Made by a program: the position numbers and the translations under genes
Shown here: piece by piece, positions 34,336 through 43,325 of the stretch
How the letters are laid out: every line of letters begins with the position of its first letter
Position numbering within the stretch: position 1 is the first letter of the stretch
The notes under the pieces: model-generated
What the model was told of the DNA's origin: nothing
What the model saw: only the letters and a program-made list of their open reading frames with translations
Databases searched by the model: none
NCBI GenBank assembly: GCA_913031395.1
Contig: CAJWDT010000002.1
Span: forward strand, 43,304 to 107,303
DNA length: 64,000 nucleotides
Reading direction: 5' to 3'
Source: an uncultured Gammaproteobacteria bacterium
GTDB taxonomy: Bacteria; Pseudomonadota; Gammaproteobacteria; Magnimaribacterales; Magnimaribacteraceae

Positions 34336-35571
34336 ATGGAATTAATTAAATCTCGTGTTTTGAGCGAAGGAAGTGCCTGGCATATTGGTAGCTTGAGTGC
34401 TGTTTATTTATCTCAGGGTCTATCAGGAGGAACTCTATTTGCTCTAACCACCTATTTGGTTTCAATTGGAGCTTCAGTAACTGATATTTCTTTGTTGTTG
34501 TCGATCACCATGATTCCTTGGACCTTGAAAGTATTTTTGGGCCCAATAATAGACTCATTTACATTGAACCGTTTTGGTAGAAGGAGATTCTGGATACTTA
34601 TAAGCCAAGTAGCAATGATGCTAGCTTTGGTGCCCTTAGTATTTATAGAAGTGAAGGCAGTAAGCCTTACTCTTATTGCTTTATTAACTCTACATAATGC
34701 ATTTGTTGCTATTTCAGATATCTCTATTGATGCCCTTGCTGCAGATAGCTTAAGGGAAGATCAGCTAGCCAATGCCAATGGTTTTATGTGGGGCAGTAAA
34801 ACCTTAGGAAGGGGTGCGGGCATGGCATTAGCTACTTCTATCTTTTATGGCTATGGGGTCAATGAAGCTTTTTCCATCTTATTAATATTAATGTCTTTAA
34901 CTTTCTTGTTCCCATTATTTTCTCATGAACTTTCTTACAAAGCCGGCTTAAAATCTGAGTCTTATAAAAATAGACTTACCCTAAAAGAGTTAGTAAGTGG
35001 TGTAAGCCAAAGTCTTTTTAATATGAGTGCTCTAGCGGCAATGACTTTTATGCTTTTCTCAAATATTGGCTATGGTATTTTTGATGTAATTTACAATGAA
35101 TTTTATATTGAAGTTTTAGGTTGGTCTGGAGAGGACATAGGCTATTTAAGACCTATAGGAATGTGGCTTGGTGGCCTGCTTGGTTTATCGGCAGGACTTT
35201 TAACTTTTTATTTTGGAAAACGTTTTCTTTTGCTCTTTTTTATAACCTGTCAGGCAATGATATTTTTGGCATCTAGTACTTTTACTTCGGATACTCCTGA
35301 CACTTTGGCTACTATCGCTATTATTGGTATTGATGCTGTAGACGCAGGATGGTCAGTTTTAATATTTTCAATTTTAATGGCTCTTTGTACTAGCAACACA
35401 AGTGCAACAAACTTTGGAATATTTATGGGCTTTGGCAATATCTCTATGTTAATTGGAAATAATATTGCACCCCTAGTTCTTGGCTCTGGAGACTATAGTT
35501 TTGCTTTTTTAGTGGCAGCCTTAACACTCATACCTTGCTGGCTAACGGGATACTATCTAACAAGGTCCTAA
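34336..35571 (+). CDS. MFS transporter
   Basis: 12-TM hydrophobic profile, LGPIIDSFTLNRFGRRRFWI motif A-like. Confidence 0.85.
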   Translation: MELIKSRVLSEGSAWHIGSLSAVYLSQGLSGGTLFALTTYLVSIGASVTDISLLLSITMIPWTLKVFLGPIIDSFTLNRFGRRRFWILISQVAMMLALVPLVFIEVKAVSLTLIALLTLHNAFVAISDISIDALAADSLREDQLANANGFMWGSKTLGRGAGMALATSIFYGYGVNEAFSILLILMSLTFLFPLFSHELSYKAGLKSESYKNRLTLKELVSGVSQSLFNMSALAAMTFMLFSNIGYGIFDVIYNEFYIEVLGWSGEDIGYLRPIGMWLGGLLGLSAGLLTFYFGKRFLLLFFITCQAMIFLASSTFTSDTPDTLATIAIIGIDAVDAGWSVLIFSILMALCTSNTSATNFGIFMGFGNISMLIGNNIAPLVLGSGDYSFAFLVAALTLIPCWLTGYYLTRS

Positions 35572-37862
35572 TCAAATTTTCTTTTATCAAATCTAACCAG
35601 TAGATTTGGAAAAAGAAAAAAATCTATAAGCAATGCAACGATAAAAGCAATGATTGAGAATTGAGCAAAGTAATGAAGGGGTATGAAATTTACCATATGC
35701 AATACAGCGAAACCCATAGACAGTACAAAGGTCATCACTATCAGAGCGAATCCAACTGCTTCAAAAGAGAAAAAGACTGCTTCTTCAGGACTTTTGCCAA
35801 GCTCTTTTCTTGCTAAGTCATACTTGCTAAGTAAATGAACTGTAAAATCTACAATTATCCCTAAAGTTGATCCCATGCCTATCGATACCATGAAACTAAC
35901 CTCACCATAGAGTATTGCCCATATTCCAAATGCACTTCCGATTGGCAATACATTTGGAAAGGATGAAAGAAACCCAAAAAGACTCGAACGAAAGAAAAAT
36001 CCAATAATTAGGGTAATCATTGTAAGTCCGATCGCCACACCGAATAGTAATGAGTTAACTATCACTCTATTCATGTGTGAGAAAACAACTCTAAATCCTG
36101 CAGGTTCAGAAATGATTGAACTTAAATTATTTGCTTTCAAGTAAGAATTAACTTTTTCATTAAATGCCAAGTATTCATTACCTGACATATCATCTAAGGT
36201 TGCTGCTATCTTTGTAGAGCCCCGATCTTGACTAATTGAGCTATTCAAATCTAATCCCATCGGGAGGGACATTTCATAAAAGAAAAGATATTGAGAAGAA
36301 AGCTCTTGGTCATCAGGAATAATTTTCCATGACATATCATCGCCATGCATGCTCTTGTTAAGGGTTTTCATAGTTCTGGCCAAGGAAGTGACATGATTTA
36401 CTTCATCCTGTTCTTCAAGCCAGATAGAGAATTTATCTAGGGATTTTAAGAAATCTGGATTCGATACACTACCATTCTCAGAATCTGCCATAAAACTAAC
36501 TGGAAAAGTTACTCCAAGTTTTTCATCGAGCCATAATGTATCAGGACCAAAAGATGTATACCTATCTGAATACATCTGAGTAGGGTTATCGTCTAACTCA
36601 TTTAATGGTATTAGAGAGATTAGAAGAAAACAAACTGCAGGGACAAGCCAAATAAATATCTTGCCTCTAGAGAGACTTAATTGAGCTATCTTTCTAGCGA
36701 AATTTGTTTGAGTTTGAGTTGCATTAGGTGTTTTGATCGTTAGAAAGGATATCACTGGTGCCACGAACAAAATTGTAAATACAAAAGCAAGAAATACTCC
36801 TACTGATATTCCATTACCTAAATCCCTCAGTGGCTCTACTTCAAGAATATTAAATGATAAAAAACCAATACAAGTTGTGACTGTAGTTAAGAAAAGGGGC
36901 TGCAGATTCAATTCCAAACTCCTTCTCATAGACTCTTCACTTGTCTTGCCTTGAGTTCTTTGTTGGAAATAAATACTAAACAGGTGAATACAGTCTGCTA
37001 GAGCTAGTGTGATTATTAGGATTGGAAAAGTAATTACCATTTGATTAAGAGCATTTCCCATTAAACCTATCGACCCGAAGGTAGAACCTATTGTCAAAAA
37101 AATCACTGCGAAGGTAGAAATAACAGCTGCTAGGCTTCTAACTAAGAAAAAGATAGATATAAATATCAAAAAAAGCATTAAAGGCATTACGACCGGCATT
37201 TCTGCTTGTACCATCTTAGGACTTATATATTCCTGATAAGGATTACCTGTTAGTCTTATATCAAGTTCAGGGTTATTCGCTCGAGCCTCTTCAAGAAATT
37301 TAAGAATGAATTCAACTGTTGTAATAAGGTTTAATTCTTTATTGGGTTGAGGAGGGTCAATCACAATGCTTATTATTGTGGTTTCTTTATCTTCTGAGAT
37401 GAGAAAACCATAAATAGATTCTTCATCTTCAACTAACTGTTCTCTTTCTTTTAAGAATTTATCATCTAGATATAGAGCATTCTCGATAAATGGCTCGACA
37501 ATCAAGTCATCATCTTCTGACTTAACATAAGAGAAATTTGTAAGACTATCCACCCTGATTGAGAAAGGCGTCTCCCAGGCCTTTTGAGTCAAGTTCTCGA
37601 TAAGATTAAGAGTATCTCTATTAAAAATAGATTCACCTTTACCATTAATAGCAATGACCATGTTATCTGTTGGAAGAAATGTTTCATCAATCTCAGAATT
37701 AAGAGCAGTGGCAGGATGACTCTCTGGAAAAAAGGTTTCCATATCAGGATTAAAAGTAAGTTTAGTAGTCCCTTGAGTTAGTCCCACAAAAATTAGGACG
37801 CTGAATAAAATACAGATTATTCGATTCTTAATAATCCATGATGCAATGTAAGTTTTGCTCAT
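35568..37862 (-). CDS. MMPL/RND superfamily exporter (lipid/hydrophobe-type)
   Basis: 764 aa, two TM/periplasmic repeats; TM4/TM10 acidic residues in TLALADCIHLFSIYF and GSTLGIIVDFTVHLLSKYD. Confidence 0.87.
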   Translation of the reverse strand: MSKTYIASWIIKNRIICILFSVLIFVGLTQGTTKLTFNPDMETFFPESHPATALNSEIDETFLPTDNMVIAINGKGESIFNRDTLNLIENLTQKAWETPFSIRVDSLTNFSYVKSEDDDLIVEPFIENALYLDDKFLKEREQLVEDEESIYGFLISEDKETTIISIVIDPPQPNKELNLITTVEFILKFLEEARANNPELDIRLTGNPYQEYISPKMVQAEMPVVMPLMLFLIFISIFFLVRSLAAVISTFAVIFLTIGSTFGSIGLMGNALNQMVITFPILIITLALADCIHLFSIYFQQRTQGKTSEESMRRSLELNLQPLFLTTVTTCIGFLSFNILEVEPLRDLGNGISVGVFLAFVFTILFVAPVISFLTIKTPNATQTQTNFARKIAQLSLSRGKIFIWLVPAVCFLLISLIPLNELDDNPTQMYSDRYTSFGPDTLWLDEKLGVTFPVSFMADSENGSVSNPDFLKSLDKFSIWLEEQDEVNHVTSLARTMKTLNKSMHGDDMSWKIIPDDQELSSQYLFFYEMSLPMGLDLNSSISQDRGSTKIAATLDDMSGNEYLAFNEKVNSYLKANNLSSIISEPAGFRVVFSHMNRVIVNSLLFGVAIGLTMITLIIGFFFRSSLFGFLSSFPNVLPIGSAFGIWAILYGEVSFMVSIGMGSTLGIIVDFTVHLLSKYDLARKELGKSPEEAVFFSFEAVGFALIVMTFVLSMGFAVLHMVNFIPLHYFAQFSIIAFIVALLIDFFLFPNLLVRFDKRKFD

Positions 37863-37865
37863 TCC

Positions 37866-39032
37866 TTAATCTCCAAAATAATAAATGAATTCCATCCTTA
37901 GAAAATCATCTTCTTTAAAAGGACTAAATAGCTTTTTCTCATTATTGTCCTCATTAATATCATCAAAATACATACCCTCTACAGAAACAAGACAACAGTC
38001 ACCCAGTCTCCTAGTCGCTTCCAGAAGAAATCCTATTTCTTCAGATCTTTCGTCATATATAAAACCAGATAATATTTGGGTATCTGAAATATCGTTCATA
38101 ATTAGTCTTGTTCCCAAAACAGCCGGAGAACTCTTTAATCTATCATCATGATTGGCTTCGACTACCCACCCCAGATCTAATCTCGAGTCCAATATTCCTA
38201 CTTGTGTGTATTCAAAGCCATATGTAGCTGCAGAAAATCTATCTCCTTGACCTGAACGAGAAATAATTTCTCCTTTTAGGGCTAAGCTACCTAGAAAATA
38301 TTGCATTTCGATGCTTGATTGATCAATAACTTCATAATGAGGTGCAATTTGATTCAATTTCTTAGGCGAAGGTAAAAACCTAGGTTCTCTTGACGTACCT
38401 GAAAAGTGCGAAACAGCTATCTCGAAATTATCGAAGTAGTTTGCCCATCTCATTGCAAAATCAATTCTTGCAGTCTTTGCAGAGGATGCGTACGAAGGAT
38501 TATCTGTATCGGTAACGATAGGCAACCTCAGTCTTCCATTTTGTCCCACAAAAGTTCTTTCTCTAAAGCCAATAAGTGCATATATATCTAATAGGCCCCA
38601 GTCTCTCTCGAAAGAAATCTTCACCATAGGCTGACCTAGCTTATCTTCTCCATCAAAACTTTCAGAACTATCCGTTTGGTTGATGATATCTACTCTATGG
38701 GAAGTTTCTGTAACACCCCAAAACTCTTTGCTAATTCCATATTTTATTTCTCTATCTTCTAGAATCTCTAGTAAATACAATTCTTGAACATCAACAAGAT
38801 TTCTTTCTGGATCTTCGTTATCTTTTCTCAATTTGGGCTTAAAATGAAATATCCTTTTGTCTTCTTCAAAGAATATTTCAGGAGAGATAGAGAAAGAACT
38901 GTGATTTTGCTTTTGTCCTTGTGCCCCTTCATTAAAGAAATATCTATTATCAAAGGAAAATTCTCCAATAACTTCTCCCATTAAAGGAGCAGAGAAAATT
39001 ATGAAAACAAGAAGCGTTTTAATCTGAGACAT
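37866..39032 (-). CDS. Putative beta-barrel outer membrane protein
   Basis: Signal peptide-like MSQIKTLLVFIIFSAPLMG; alternating amphipathic strands, terminal FIYYFGD. Confidence 0.55.
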   Translation of the reverse strand: MSQIKTLLVFIIFSAPLMGEVIGEFSFDNRYFFNEGAQGQKQNHSSFSISPEIFFEEDKRIFHFKPKLRKDNEDPERNLVDVQELYLLEILEDREIKYGISKEFWGVTETSHRVDIINQTDSSESFDGEDKLGQPMVKISFERDWGLLDIYALIGFRERTFVGQNGRLRLPIVTDTDNPSYASSAKTARIDFAMRWANYFDNFEIAVSHFSGTSREPRFLPSPKKLNQIAPHYEVIDQSSIEMQYFLGSLALKGEIISRSGQGDRFSAATYGFEYTQVGILDSRLDLGWVVEANHDDRLKSSPAVLGTRLIMNDISDTQILSGFIYDERSEEIGFLLEATRRLGDCCLVSVEGMYFDDINEDNNEKKLFSPFKEDDFLRMEFIYYFGD

Positions 39033-39833
39033 CTACCTAGATCTTCTTAAACTATTCTGTGAAAAGTCTTTATCTGTAAATCCATTATTAAGTTTTACAT
39101 CTTGAAATTTAAGTACAGAACTTTTTCCATTTTGATGATTCATCATCATAACTTTGTGAGGTTGCCAAAAGAATCCTTCATAAAGTTTATATTCTTCAAA
39201 TGTTTGTGTTTTTAGATGGAAAGACTTTCTGTCATAGTGATGAATTTTTTGAACAAGGTAGTTATCCTTATCAATCCATACCAATTGTTTTGTATAGCCG
39301 GAGTAGGGATCAAGGGGACGTCTTTCTATCAAGTAACAAGTTAAATTTAAACATGCTTCTTCCCCTATGAATTTGTACTCATACTTCTCCACTTCTTGAA
39401 ATGAAAAGTCTTCAAATGAAAATTCGCTACCCAAGAACGGGCCTGATTTATTTTTGGATGCTATTCTCTTAACTCTTTTGAGTGCAGGAAGATATAGCCA
39501 TTGATCATCAGAATCTACCTTATGTGCATAAGACAATATCGCAACCCCTTTAACATCTCTTGGACTTTCAAAAATTGCTATCGATTTATCACCATCTTCA
39601 GGCACTTCAAGTCTTTTAAAGGATAATTTCCTTTCGACTATGTCTCCTTTCTTGTTGATTAATTGCATTACCATAGAAGAAGAGCTATCTATATAACCCT
39701 CGTTATTCTTGTCACTAAGTTCTGCAATCTCCAACCCTTTATTTGCTGAAATTTCTCCCGATAATGCAAATAGCACGACATAGAAAAACAAAAATATTGA
39801 TCTTTTATACAAGAAAAAATGTAATCGACTCAT
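39033..39833 (-). CDS. Outer membrane lipoprotein-sorting protein (LolA-like, PF17131-type)
   Basis: DDQWLYLPALKRVKRIASKNKSGPFLGSEFSFEDF signature. Confidence 0.85.
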   Translation of the reverse strand: MSRLHFFLYKRSIFLFFYVVLFALSGEISANKGLEIAELSDKNNEGYIDSSSSMVMQLINKKGDIVERKLSFKRLEVPEDGDKSIAIFESPRDVKGVAILSYAHKVDSDDQWLYLPALKRVKRIASKNKSGPFLGSEFSFEDFSFQEVEKYEYKFIGEEACLNLTCYLIERRPLDPYSGYTKQLVWIDKDNYLVQKIHHYDRKSFHLKTQTFEEYKLYEGFFWQPHKVMMMNHQNGKSSVLKFQDVKLNNGFTDKDFSQNSLRRSR

Positions 39834-40489
39834 ATTAGGGCTCCTCCATGTAAATCTTTAATTATTATTTTGGATTCTTTGCTTAGGTAAGGTTCTGAAA
39901 CTTTAATTAAGAGCCCCATACCTCTTTGCATTAAAAAATTTTCATCTTTATGAGGGTATTTTTTTGACGAGAGAGCAAACCAATTATCGGCAATGAGAAA
40001 AATAATTTCGGTAAGTTCGTCTAATTCATTCTCTTTGAAATCAAATACACCTAGATCTCTTGCAATGAGAGCATCTTGCTTAATTGTATCGAAACGCAAT
40101 TGAGTTAAATTATCTAATTTTTTGGAAATGGGTTTATCCCTAGAAAATTTATTGGCAAGATCATCTCTAAGAAGATATCTGAAATCCCAATCAAAATAAT
40201 ACTGAGAAAATAGCTGCTTGACTAAGATTTCTAAATCAATCTTCCTTTCTGCATTTAGTCTCAGACCAAAATTTGTTTTAAAAAGATCAATATGAGATTC
40301 AACTAAACTTTTTTTTGATTTGAAGTGGTACCAAAGGGTTCCCTCGCGAACTTTTGCAGATGATGCCAAAAGCGCAGTCGTGACACTAGTGAAACCTTTT
40401 CTGTTAAAAAGCTGAAGACTATTTTTGAGTAATTTGTCTCTGGTACAGTCAGTAAATAAAGCAGTTGTTCTTTCAGATAAATCTTTCAT
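39830..40489 (-). CDS. TetR/AcrR family transcriptional regulator
   Basis: N-terminal HTH LLKNSLQLFNRKGFTSVTTALLASSAKVREGTLWYHFKSKKSLVE; start set to MKDL at 40489. Confidence 0.88.
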   Translation of the reverse strand: MKDLSERTTALFTDCTRDKLLKNSLQLFNRKGFTSVTTALLASSAKVREGTLWYHFKSKKSLVESHIDLFKTNFGLRLNAERKIDLEILVKQLFSQYYFDWDFRYLLRDDLANKFSRDKPISKKLDNLTQLRFDTIKQDALIARDLGVFDFKENELDELTEIIFLIADNWFALSSKKYPHKDENFLMQRGMGLLIKVSEPYLSKESKIIIKDLHGGALI

Positions 40490-40527
40490 TAGGGTATTTA
40501 CCCTAAATATTAGGGTAAATACCCTAA
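40489..40527. promoter_or_regulatory. Double palindromic operator, likely autoregulatory TetR site
   Basis: TTAGGGTATTTACCCTAA-ata-TTAGGGTAAATACCCTAA; each 18-bp half is an inverted repeat, the two are reverse complements, 21-bp spacing. Confidence 0.75.
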
Positions 40528-40562
40528 AAGTCAACTAACATTAATTAATTTATTCAATATAT

Positions 40563-41447
40563 CTAACTATCCAGGTAATTTTGTTGAATGCTAGAGAAAT
40601 CAAGCCCTTCCAAGCCTTGATTATTTAGCTCTTCATAAAGCTCTTTAGCGAGTCTCCCCATAGGAGTATTAGACTTAGACTGAGCTGCTAATTCTTCAGC
40701 TAGGTTGAGGTCCTTAAGCATCAGGGAATTTAAAAAACCACCTGAGTAGCTATTGCTTGCAGGAGCACCTTTCATGACTCCCGGGTATGGATTATATTTT
40801 TCAAGAGACCAGTTGCCTCCAGAGCTATTTTTCATTATCTCCGACAAAACTGCTGGATCTAGTCCATTATTAACTCCCATCGCAATCGTTTCAGCCGTCC
40901 CACACATATGGATTGCCAATAGCATATTATTACAAAGCTTCGCTATCTGTCCTGCACCTGCCTGACCAGCATAAAAGGTTTTATCTCCCATAATATCCAA
41001 AAGAGGAACAGCTTTCTGAAGGTCAGCTTCATCACCTCCAACAATAAAAGTAAGAGTACCTGACTCAGCTCCTTTAACACCACCCGATACAGGGGCATCC
41101 AACATAGAAATATTCATCTCAGTTGCTTTTTTAGACACCTTTATCGAAACTTCGGGATTTATAGTAGACGATTCAATAACAATAGTATTTTGACTAATTT
41201 GTTCTATTAAATCCTCTTTCAAGTATATATTTTCAACAGCCTTGTCATTCGGCAGCATAGTAATAAGTGCATCAATATTTTCTGTAACCTCTGAGGCATG
41301 ATTTTTAGTTGCCATCCCTAATTCTTCCGCTCTTCGCATTGCATCAGCAGATAAATCGAAGGCCTTTACTTCAATGCCTGCCTTTATGATGTTATTGGCC
41401 ATCGGTAAGCCCATATTTCCTAAACCTATAAAACCAACTTTTTTCAT
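40563..41447 (-). CDS. mmsB: 3-hydroxyisobutyrate dehydrogenase
   Basis: KKVGFIGLGNMGLPMANNIIKAG, DAPVSGGVKGAESGTLTFIVGG. Confidence 0.92.
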   Translation of the reverse strand: MKKVGFIGLGNMGLPMANNIIKAGIEVKAFDLSADAMRRAEELGMATKNHASEVTENIDALITMLPNDKAVENIYLKEDLIEQISQNTIVIESSTINPEVSIKVSKKATEMNISMLDAPVSGGVKGAESGTLTFIVGGDEADLQKAVPLLDIMGDKTFYAGQAGAGQIAKLCNNMLLAIHMCGTAETIAMGVNNGLDPAVLSEIMKNSSGGNWSLEKYNPYPGVMKGAPASNSYSGGFLNSLMLKDLNLAEELAAQSKSNTPMGRLAKELYEELNNQGLEGLDFSSIQQNYLDS

Positions 41448-41449
41448 TT

Positions 41450-42562
41450 TTAAAGATCCTCCAAAGGATTTATCTCCCAAGCTAAGTCTGTATGTTTATC
41501 TATCCATGCCTGTTGAACATTTTTAATGGAATCATATTTCCATTTAGGTTTATTATCCTTATCGATAATTAAAGCCCTGATACCCTCTTTGAAGTCACCC
41601 ATTCTAGTAATCTGTATAGCTAAGTTAAGCTCAAAATTAAATACCTCTTTTAAACTAAGACTTGAAGAATTTAAATGCTGCAGCCAGATTAAATGCGCTG
41701 AGGTTGGACTCCCTTTCTTGAGCGATTCTTTTCCTCTCGTAAACCATTCATCTTCTATTGCATGACCCATTATGTTATCTACGATTTTTATAAGGTTGTC
41801 TTCATTAGTCATCGATTGAATTTTTTCTAACTCACCTTCAACCTTACTGGAAGGGAAGTTCTCTACTTCTTTTAAATAAGAACTTCTTTTCAATATTGAA
41901 TCAAGCAGAGCTAAATTTTCATCAACATCGTCCTGCCAAGCTACCTCAAGAACATCCAAAAGGAAATCTTGCATTTTTGTATAGCTTAAACAACTATCAA
42001 CTAAATTACAGAAACGCATATCAGCAGCATTTAGTTGCGAGGCTGTCAGCATAATGTAGAGACCAAGACCTTCAGGTAGGTCTTTTATTAAGGATGTAAA
42101 GCCAACGTCAGGAAACAAACCAACACCAATTTCTGGCATAGCAAACTTTGTTCTTTCAGTTGCAATTTTATAAGAACTACCGAACATCAGACCAGCTCCA
42201 CCTCCCATTACAATTCCATCTAAAAGGGAGATTATAGGTTTTGAAAAATTATGGAGTTTATAGTCCAATCTATATTCTGATTCAAAAAATGATTCTGCAA
42301 AAACAGGACCTTCTGGCGAACACATTGATTCATATAGCGCCCTTATGTCACCACCAGCACAAAATGCTTTTTCACCTGATCCACTTACTAAGATCATTTT
42401 AATTTGTGGATCAACTTCCCAATCATCTAATAGATTAGAGATTTTGTTAACCATATTCATAGTTAACGAATTCAATGTCTCGGGAGAATTGAGTGTTATA
42501 TGACCAACTTTAGTATCATGTTGACACTCTAATATCTCTACTAATAATTCTTCATTAGGCAT
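41450..42562 (-). CDS. 3-hydroxyisobutyryl-CoA hydrolase (enoyl-CoA hydratase/isomerase family)
   Basis: GSGEKAFCAGGDIRALYES, DGIVMGGGAGLMFGSSYKIATERTKFAMPEIGVGLFPDVG. Confidence 0.9.
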   Translation of the reverse strand: MPNEELLVEILECQHDTKVGHITLNSPETLNSLTMNMVNKISNLLDDWEVDPQIKMILVSGSGEKAFCAGGDIRALYESMCSPEGPVFAESFFESEYRLDYKLHNFSKPIISLLDGIVMGGGAGLMFGSSYKIATERTKFAMPEIGVGLFPDVGFTSLIKDLPEGLGLYIMLTASQLNAADMRFCNLVDSCLSYTKMQDFLLDVLEVAWQDDVDENLALLDSILKRSSYLKEVENFPSSKVEGELEKIQSMTNEDNLIKIVDNIMGHAIEDEWFTRGKESLKKGSPTSAHLIWLQHLNSSSLSLKEVFNFELNLAIQITRMGDFKEGIRALIIDKDNKPKWKYDSIKNVQQAWIDKHTDLAWEINPLEDL

Positions 42563-43325
42563 TTTGCCAATTGGGTTTTCTTTTATCCAAGAAGGCTTCA
42601 ACACCTTCTTTTTGATCTTTTGTGTCAAATAAATTTACGAAAGGTTCCAATTCTTCTTTATACGATTCTTTAGAGAGACGAGCTTTATGAATTAACTCTT
42701 TGCATTGTGCAATACTACTAGGGCTCTGATTTGCGACTGAACTGGCCATTGACATAGCGGTTTCTAAGGCTTTTCCATCTTCCACTTTTTCTTCAATTAA
42801 ACCAATTCTAACTGCCTGATCAGCTTTGATTTGCTCTCCAGTTAAAATAATCCTTTTTGCCCAACCTTCTCCCACTAACCTAGGCAGAACTTGTGTACCT
42901 CCTCCACATGGCAATAAACCTACTTTAGGTTCAGGTAGAGCAAGTAAGGCTTTTTCTTCAGCCACTCTTATATCGCAGGCCAAAGCACACTCCAATCCTC
43001 CTCCCATAGCAAATCCATTTATAGCAGCTATAGAGACACCTCTAAATTTACTTAGAGCATCAAAAGCTTTTGAAAAAGCATTACTCATTTCTTTTGCTGC
43101 CTCTTTTCCGCCTTCATGGAAAACTTTAAGGTCCGCACCGGCAGAAAAGAATTTTTCTCCTTGCCCGGTGATAACTAAAGCAAAGATTTCATCATCCTGA
43201 TTAAGTAGTTTAATAATTTCTTCTAATCCTGAAAGACTCTCAAGGTCCCATGTATTAGCACTAGGGTTATTTATTGTAATCTTGGCTGTATTAGCTATTT
43301 TTTCGAGTATTAATTTATCAGTCAT
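42555..43325 (-). CDS. Enoyl-CoA hydratase
   Basis: GQGEKFFSAGADLKVF, AINGFAMGGGLECALACDIRVAEEKALLALPEPKVGLLPCGGGTQ. Confidence 0.92.
   Translation of the reverse strand: MTDKLILEKIANTAKITINNPSANTWDLESLSGLEEIIKLLNQDDEIFALVITGQGEKFFSAGADLKVFHEGGKEAAKEMSNAFSKAFDALSKFRGVSIAAINGFAMGGGLECALACDIRVAEEKALLALPEPKVGLLPCGGGTQVLPRLVGEGWAKRIILTGEQIKADQAVRIGLIEEKVEDGKALETAMSMASSVANQSPSSIAQCKELIHKARLSKESYKEELEPFVNLFDTKDQKEGVEAFLDKRKPNWQNA

Follow-up and report, generated by a model that had tools for sequence, protein, structure and literature searches.

The 64,000-nucleotide stretch of DNA analysed here (the window) raised the question of why two palindromes lie almost end to end directly before a TetR-family regulator gene, and which protein would recognise them. 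SAR86 bacteria are abundant, streamlined and mostly uncultured, and a literature search combining SAR86 with TetR returned no title or abstract on such a regulator. On the plus strand, positions 40489-40527 read TTAGGGTATTTACCCTAA, then ATA, then TTAGGGTAAATACCCTAA, within the following features.

35568..37862, minus strand: MMPL-family RND transporter (HAE3/HpnN-like), 764 aa
37866..39032, minus strand: predicted outer-membrane porin-like beta-barrel, 388 aa, without Pfam match
39033..39833, minus strand: LolA_like (PF17131) periplasmic lipoprotein-sorting-type protein, its ATG overlapping the tetR stop
39830..40489, minus strand: TetR-family regulator (tetR), 219 aa, TetR_N plus PF13972 C-terminal domain, start ATG at 40489
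40489..40506, TTAGGGTATTTACCCTAA on the plus strand: palindrome copy 2 (predicted operator 2), downstream of the -10 and running into the tetR ATG by one base
40507..40512, minus strand: predicted -10 hexamer TAATAT, consensus match, 16-bp spacer from the -35
40510..40527, TTAGGGTAAATACCCTAA on the plus strand: palindrome copy 1 (predicted operator 1, promoter-proximal), in the -35/-10 spacer, its last bases shared with the -10
40529..40534, minus strand: predicted -35 hexamer TTGACT, consensus match
40563..41447, minus strand: 3-hydroxyisobutyrate dehydrogenase (mmsB), which closes a valine-degradation-type operon, tetR following 73 bp further on

Both copies were perfect 18-bp palindromes with 8-bp arms, TTAGGGTAAATACCCTAA being the exact reverse complement of TTAGGGTATTTACCCTAA, and their repeat distance was 21 bp; the original prediction of a double 18-bp palindrome with a 21-bp repeat was exact in sequence, arms and reverse-complement relation. 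Searching the window with up to 3 mismatches produced 2 matches, both belonging to this pair, against 0.13 expected by chance from shuffles, and two sites were obtained in 0 of 100 shuffles of the window. The window belongs to a MAG of the SAR86 cluster, as shown by its named relatives, which are SAR86 records. No further palindrome stood above background in this 1.08-Mb MAG, where 2 extra matches at 2 mismatches were found versus 9 for a reversed control pattern.

A sigma70-like promoter, TTGACT-16-TAATAT, was predicted upstream of tetR on the coding strand, and it houses the pair, with copy 1 filling the -35/-10 spacer and copy 2 directly after the -10. At all eight related loci the -35 was conserved as TTGAC or TTGAT, the first core began 4-5 nt past it, and the -10 lay between the copies; the predicted -10 was imperfect in some of the related genomes. 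A transcript starting ~7 bases past the -10 would begin inside copy 2, leaving a leader of ~10 bases. Because the sites overlay the predicted promoter, the autorepression geometry proposed earlier is well supported. The site had also been said to overlap the tetR start, and it does so by a single base, the first base of the ATG (CAT at 40487-40489 on the plus strand) being the last base of the site, so the palindrome lies just upstream of the coding sequence and not within it. The earlier preference for the start at 40489 (MKDL) over one at 40534 was borne out by the orthologues: in four of six the open frame was the 219-aa one without upstream extension, the frame being closed upstream, and the copy spacing varied between 20, 21 and 22 bp, which would shift the frame. 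The longer ORF from the TTG at 40534 is therefore not a conserved protein, and this start was rejected.

The regulator itself carried a TetR_N helix-turn-helix domain (PF00440, 41.8 bits, cut-off 24) and a C-terminal ligand/dimer-type domain (PF13972, 45.7 bits, cut-off 25). Its predicted fold was all-helical, with TetR proteins as best PDB matches and helices at 38-44 and 49-57 in the N-terminal domain, the model being only moderately confident (pLDDT 72), and in the clade alignment the recognition-helix residues V47, E49, G50 and L52-F56 were invariant. By phmmer against the PDB (E<=1e-5), it was matched by 3rh2, 3nnr, IcaR, YttP and others; neither DesT nor FabR was among the matches at this threshold.

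Conservation was followed across SAR86. tetR orthologues were present in six same-genus genomes including that of the window, whose five orthologues were 69-79% identical, and these six were also the same-genus genomes with the palindromes, the pair standing directly before the tetR ATG in 6/6 at a spacing of 20, 21 or 22 bp. A strict doublet pattern (GGGTRNNYACCC twice, 6-12 bp gap), run over 203 SAR86 genomes, matched in seven, at one place each and always with this TetR, and the reversed control matched in none; an eighth genome with this TetR (G044) had the doublet with one off-consensus base. A profile of the TetR clade, run over 202 SAR86 genomes, recovered only 8 true members (E<=1e-60, next match 6e-10). 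The twin site was thus present in 8/8 genomes with this TetR clade and in 0 of the others among the 202-203 SAR86 genomes searched, and the chance of all seven strict doublets (7/7) falling in the eight tetR genomes was ~5e-10 (101 genomes, relatedness ignored). Since the pair is in every genome with the regulator and in none without it, the palindromes are almost certainly, on comparison of sequences, this TetR's own binding sites. Outside SAR86, no member of the TetR clade was found in 274 sampled Gammaproteobacteria genomes and no relative of the protein in the viral contigs searched, and the doublet matched once in 369 Gammaproteobacteria genomes (G406), a GC-rich match with a different gap that was judged to be chance.

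A second gene context ties the sites to this TetR most strongly. In SAR86E and G044, a TetR homologue 37-42% identical to that of the window comes after a fatty-acid desaturase gene in a two-gene desaturase-tetR unit, and there the pair of sites stands before the desaturase, with no site before tetR. These copies, GGGTR-NN-YACCC at 22 bp, occupy the desaturase promoter (TTGACT-18-TATAAT in G044) as they do that of the window, the first within the spacer and the second past the -10. As the distant homologues keep the pairs, but ahead of desaturase-tetR, it is the regulator that the site accompanies and not the neighbouring gene. A palindrome missing upstream of orthologues had been named as refuting the original prediction, which survived this check both in the six orthologues and before this operon in the two distant homologues. 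What is established for SAR86, in two gene contexts, is that the sites exist, that they hold a fixed place relative to a conserved promoter motif, and that they and the regulator occur together one to one.

The pair very probably serves as a twin operator through which a TetR-family repressor specific to SAR86 represses its own operon, tetR-LolA-barrel-MMPL, two dimers occupying the sites and a ligand probably lifting the repression. We infer binding, repression, two-dimer occupancy, operon co-transcription and the class of ligand. Two TetR dimers would line up end to end with two helical turns between them, the spacing of 20-22 bp placing both on one DNA face to within about 35 degrees. One dimer would lie over the -35/-10 spacer and the other just past the -10, so that spacer, -10 and start region would be covered and RNA polymerase would be blocked at the promoter serving tetR together with the LolA-like, barrel and MMPL genes, which run in the same direction. 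Ligand would free the repressor, and the envelope lipid-transport cassette and tetR would be switched on together. Because the targets are LolA-like, barrel and MMPL genes and a desaturase appears in the second context, the ligand is most likely a lipid or acyl-CoA-type molecule, to judge by gene context and by the examples of DesT and FadR(Sa). The stretch from mmsB to tetR showed no terminator, so the mms operon may read through into tetR, and autorepression need not control the whole transcript.

Several known systems share parts of this arrangement. Tn10 TetR, with tetO1 and tetO2, is likewise a TetR-family repressor with two operators at its own promoter, joining autorepression to transporter control (here predicted), but its tetR and tetA genes are divergent, whereas here the genes are co-directional and the two sites, 20-22 bp apart, lie end to end. 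For Tn10 TetR, tetO1 and tetO2 are not reported to be bound cooperatively (PMC3037858), so two-operator TetR systems need not be cooperative. QacR, CgmR, MS6564 and CprB also place two dimers on one operator region, as predicted here, but these dimers share one 22-32 bp site described as non-palindromic, bound at opposite sides of a 22-bp site in CprB (PMC4150764). Instead of one overlapping site, the present locus has two complete, separate and perfect palindromes 20-22 bp apart, and assignment to the QacR-type cooperative operator class was rejected. HlyIIR of Bacillus cereus protects about 50 bp of a single control region with two dimers or more (PMC1828608), and more than one dimer is likewise predicted here; it represses hemolysin II and showed no close sequence relation to this TetR among the PDB phmmer matches. 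DesT, FabR and FadR(Sa) are TetR-family lipid-gene regulators responding to acyl-CoA (PMC8872791; PMC6449355), and the operator of DesT is one 17-bp site taken up by one dimer (PMC4150764). The link of DesT and FabR to lipid genes is shared by the distant SAR86 homologues that sit with the desaturase, and the DesT/FabR-type acyl-CoA sensor class was rejected as a close sequence relation by phmmer against the PDB (E<=1e-5). The best sequence and fold matches, the structural-genomics TetR proteins 3RH2 (Shewanella) and 3NNR (Marinobacter), were only 22-23% identical, and their listings carry no function. The twin operator is thus a well-supported but ordinary kind of self-regulating switch, for which regulator, probable binding site and target genes could be read from sequence comparison alone, and a precise consensus motif, GGGTR-NN-YACCC twice, 20-22 bp apart, is now available for testing.

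Gene order in the six carriers was mms genes, mmsB, tetR, LolA-like, barrel, MMPL. In seven genomes of the same genus (G003, G005, G008, G009, G010, G012, G015), and in several other genera of the family, mmsB was adjacent or nearly so to the LolA-like gene, without tetR and without the site, the LolA gene beginning a few tens of bases after mmsB; absence was scored only at contiguous junctions, several of the MAGs being incomplete. Promoter, twin operator and tetR thus behave as one removable module, and close relatives with and without it offer a natural comparison. Because the carriers did not form one clade on a seven-gene tree, this piece has come or gone as a whole on more than one occasion. 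In gene trees the mmsB and tetR of the window (39830-41447) were nearest G013, and its LolA, barrel and MMPL genes (35568-39833) nearest G014/G001/G006; this change across the tetR/LolA junction suggests recombination there, with a likely breakpoint at the junction.

The position of the module bears on a further role for the bound dimers that is compatible with the twin operator, namely that they halt polymerase arriving from the valine-degradation operon and so uncouple LolA-barrel-MMPL where the module is present. The module is located exactly at the mmsB/LolA junction, with no terminator before it, and where tetR is missing the LolA gene comes so soon after mmsB that the two look co-transcribed; the desaturase-tetR context, however, has its own intergenic region, where a roadblock would be unneeded. 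We consider this role possible, if on balance doubtful. A wider scheme, in which a lipid-sensing TetR clade confined to SAR86 travels as an independent unit made up of tetR and its promoter with the twin operator, entering in one lineage between the genes for valine degradation and those of an envelope lipid-export cassette, so that the dimers would both autorepress and act as a roadblock, and controlling a fatty-acid desaturase in another, we regard as unlikely in its entirety.

The 39-bp inverted repeat formed by the two copies might instead act as RNA, readthrough mms transcripts forming an 18-bp hairpin that terminates transcription or hides the tetR start and so insulates tetR. The 62-nt strand of the window does fold to -26.1 kcal/mol (z -6.3), and the mmsB-tetR interval contains no other terminator. 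Inter-copy pairing was, however, only 13-15 of 18 Watson-Crick in G013, G014, G018, G100 and G044; in G013 and G018 the copies were near-identical direct repeats of an asymmetric site, with centres shifted in the same direction, as for two protein sites. Moreover, no T run follows the hairpin, no Rfam family matched, and with the predicted transcript start inside the second copy most of the hairpin would go untranscribed from the promoter of tetR itself. A Rho-independent terminator or RNA element was rejected for want of a terminator, an Rfam match and conserved inter-copy pairing, and this reading is very unlikely. Palindromes are bound by many regulators, and these could serve another, such as one of the mms operon, and stand beside tetR by coincidence; yet the sites are absent where tetR is absent though the mms operon remains, they accompany tetR to the unrelated desaturase operon, and the genome holds no further sites, making such a coincidence very improbable. 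A mobile-element end, a replication feature or a chance repeat has a negligible probability, for although inverted repeats are typical of many mobile elements and the host tree shows a patchy distribution of the module, both copies lie on one side of tetR and the module has none at its opposite end; they occur at a single place in each genome, positioned relative to the promoter hexamers.

The twin operator and tetR apart, LolA-like, barrel and MMPL genes (35568-39833; loci L024-L028, L067-L079) formed a cassette that is conserved in this SAR86 family and immediately follows the valine-degradation operon, a position that suggests that envelope lipid transport is connected with branched-chain acyl metabolism. 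The best fold matches of the predicted barrel were OmpM1, OmpC and AlgE, and a literature search on an MMPL/LolA-like/TetR operon returned no relevant paper.

Residue 48 of the regulator, just before the recognition helix, was variable, being R in most f1 orthologues, H or S in others, and L in SAR86E, and the operator base before GGG was mostly A in f1 and T in SAR86E; the two are a possible specificity pair, as judged from the alignments. The desaturase-tetR pair with its twin operator was located at 6134-7654 of L029 and at 1803-3265 of L088 (reverse complement), and the desaturase was found only in SAR86E and G044. Because only these two SAR86 genomes, of different genera, carry the pair, it may be horizontally acquired. 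Two enoyl-CoA hydratase-type genes in the window, at 42555-43325 and 41450-42628, overlapped by up to 74 bp (42555-42628) as mechanically called, and the true start of the second probably lies further in.
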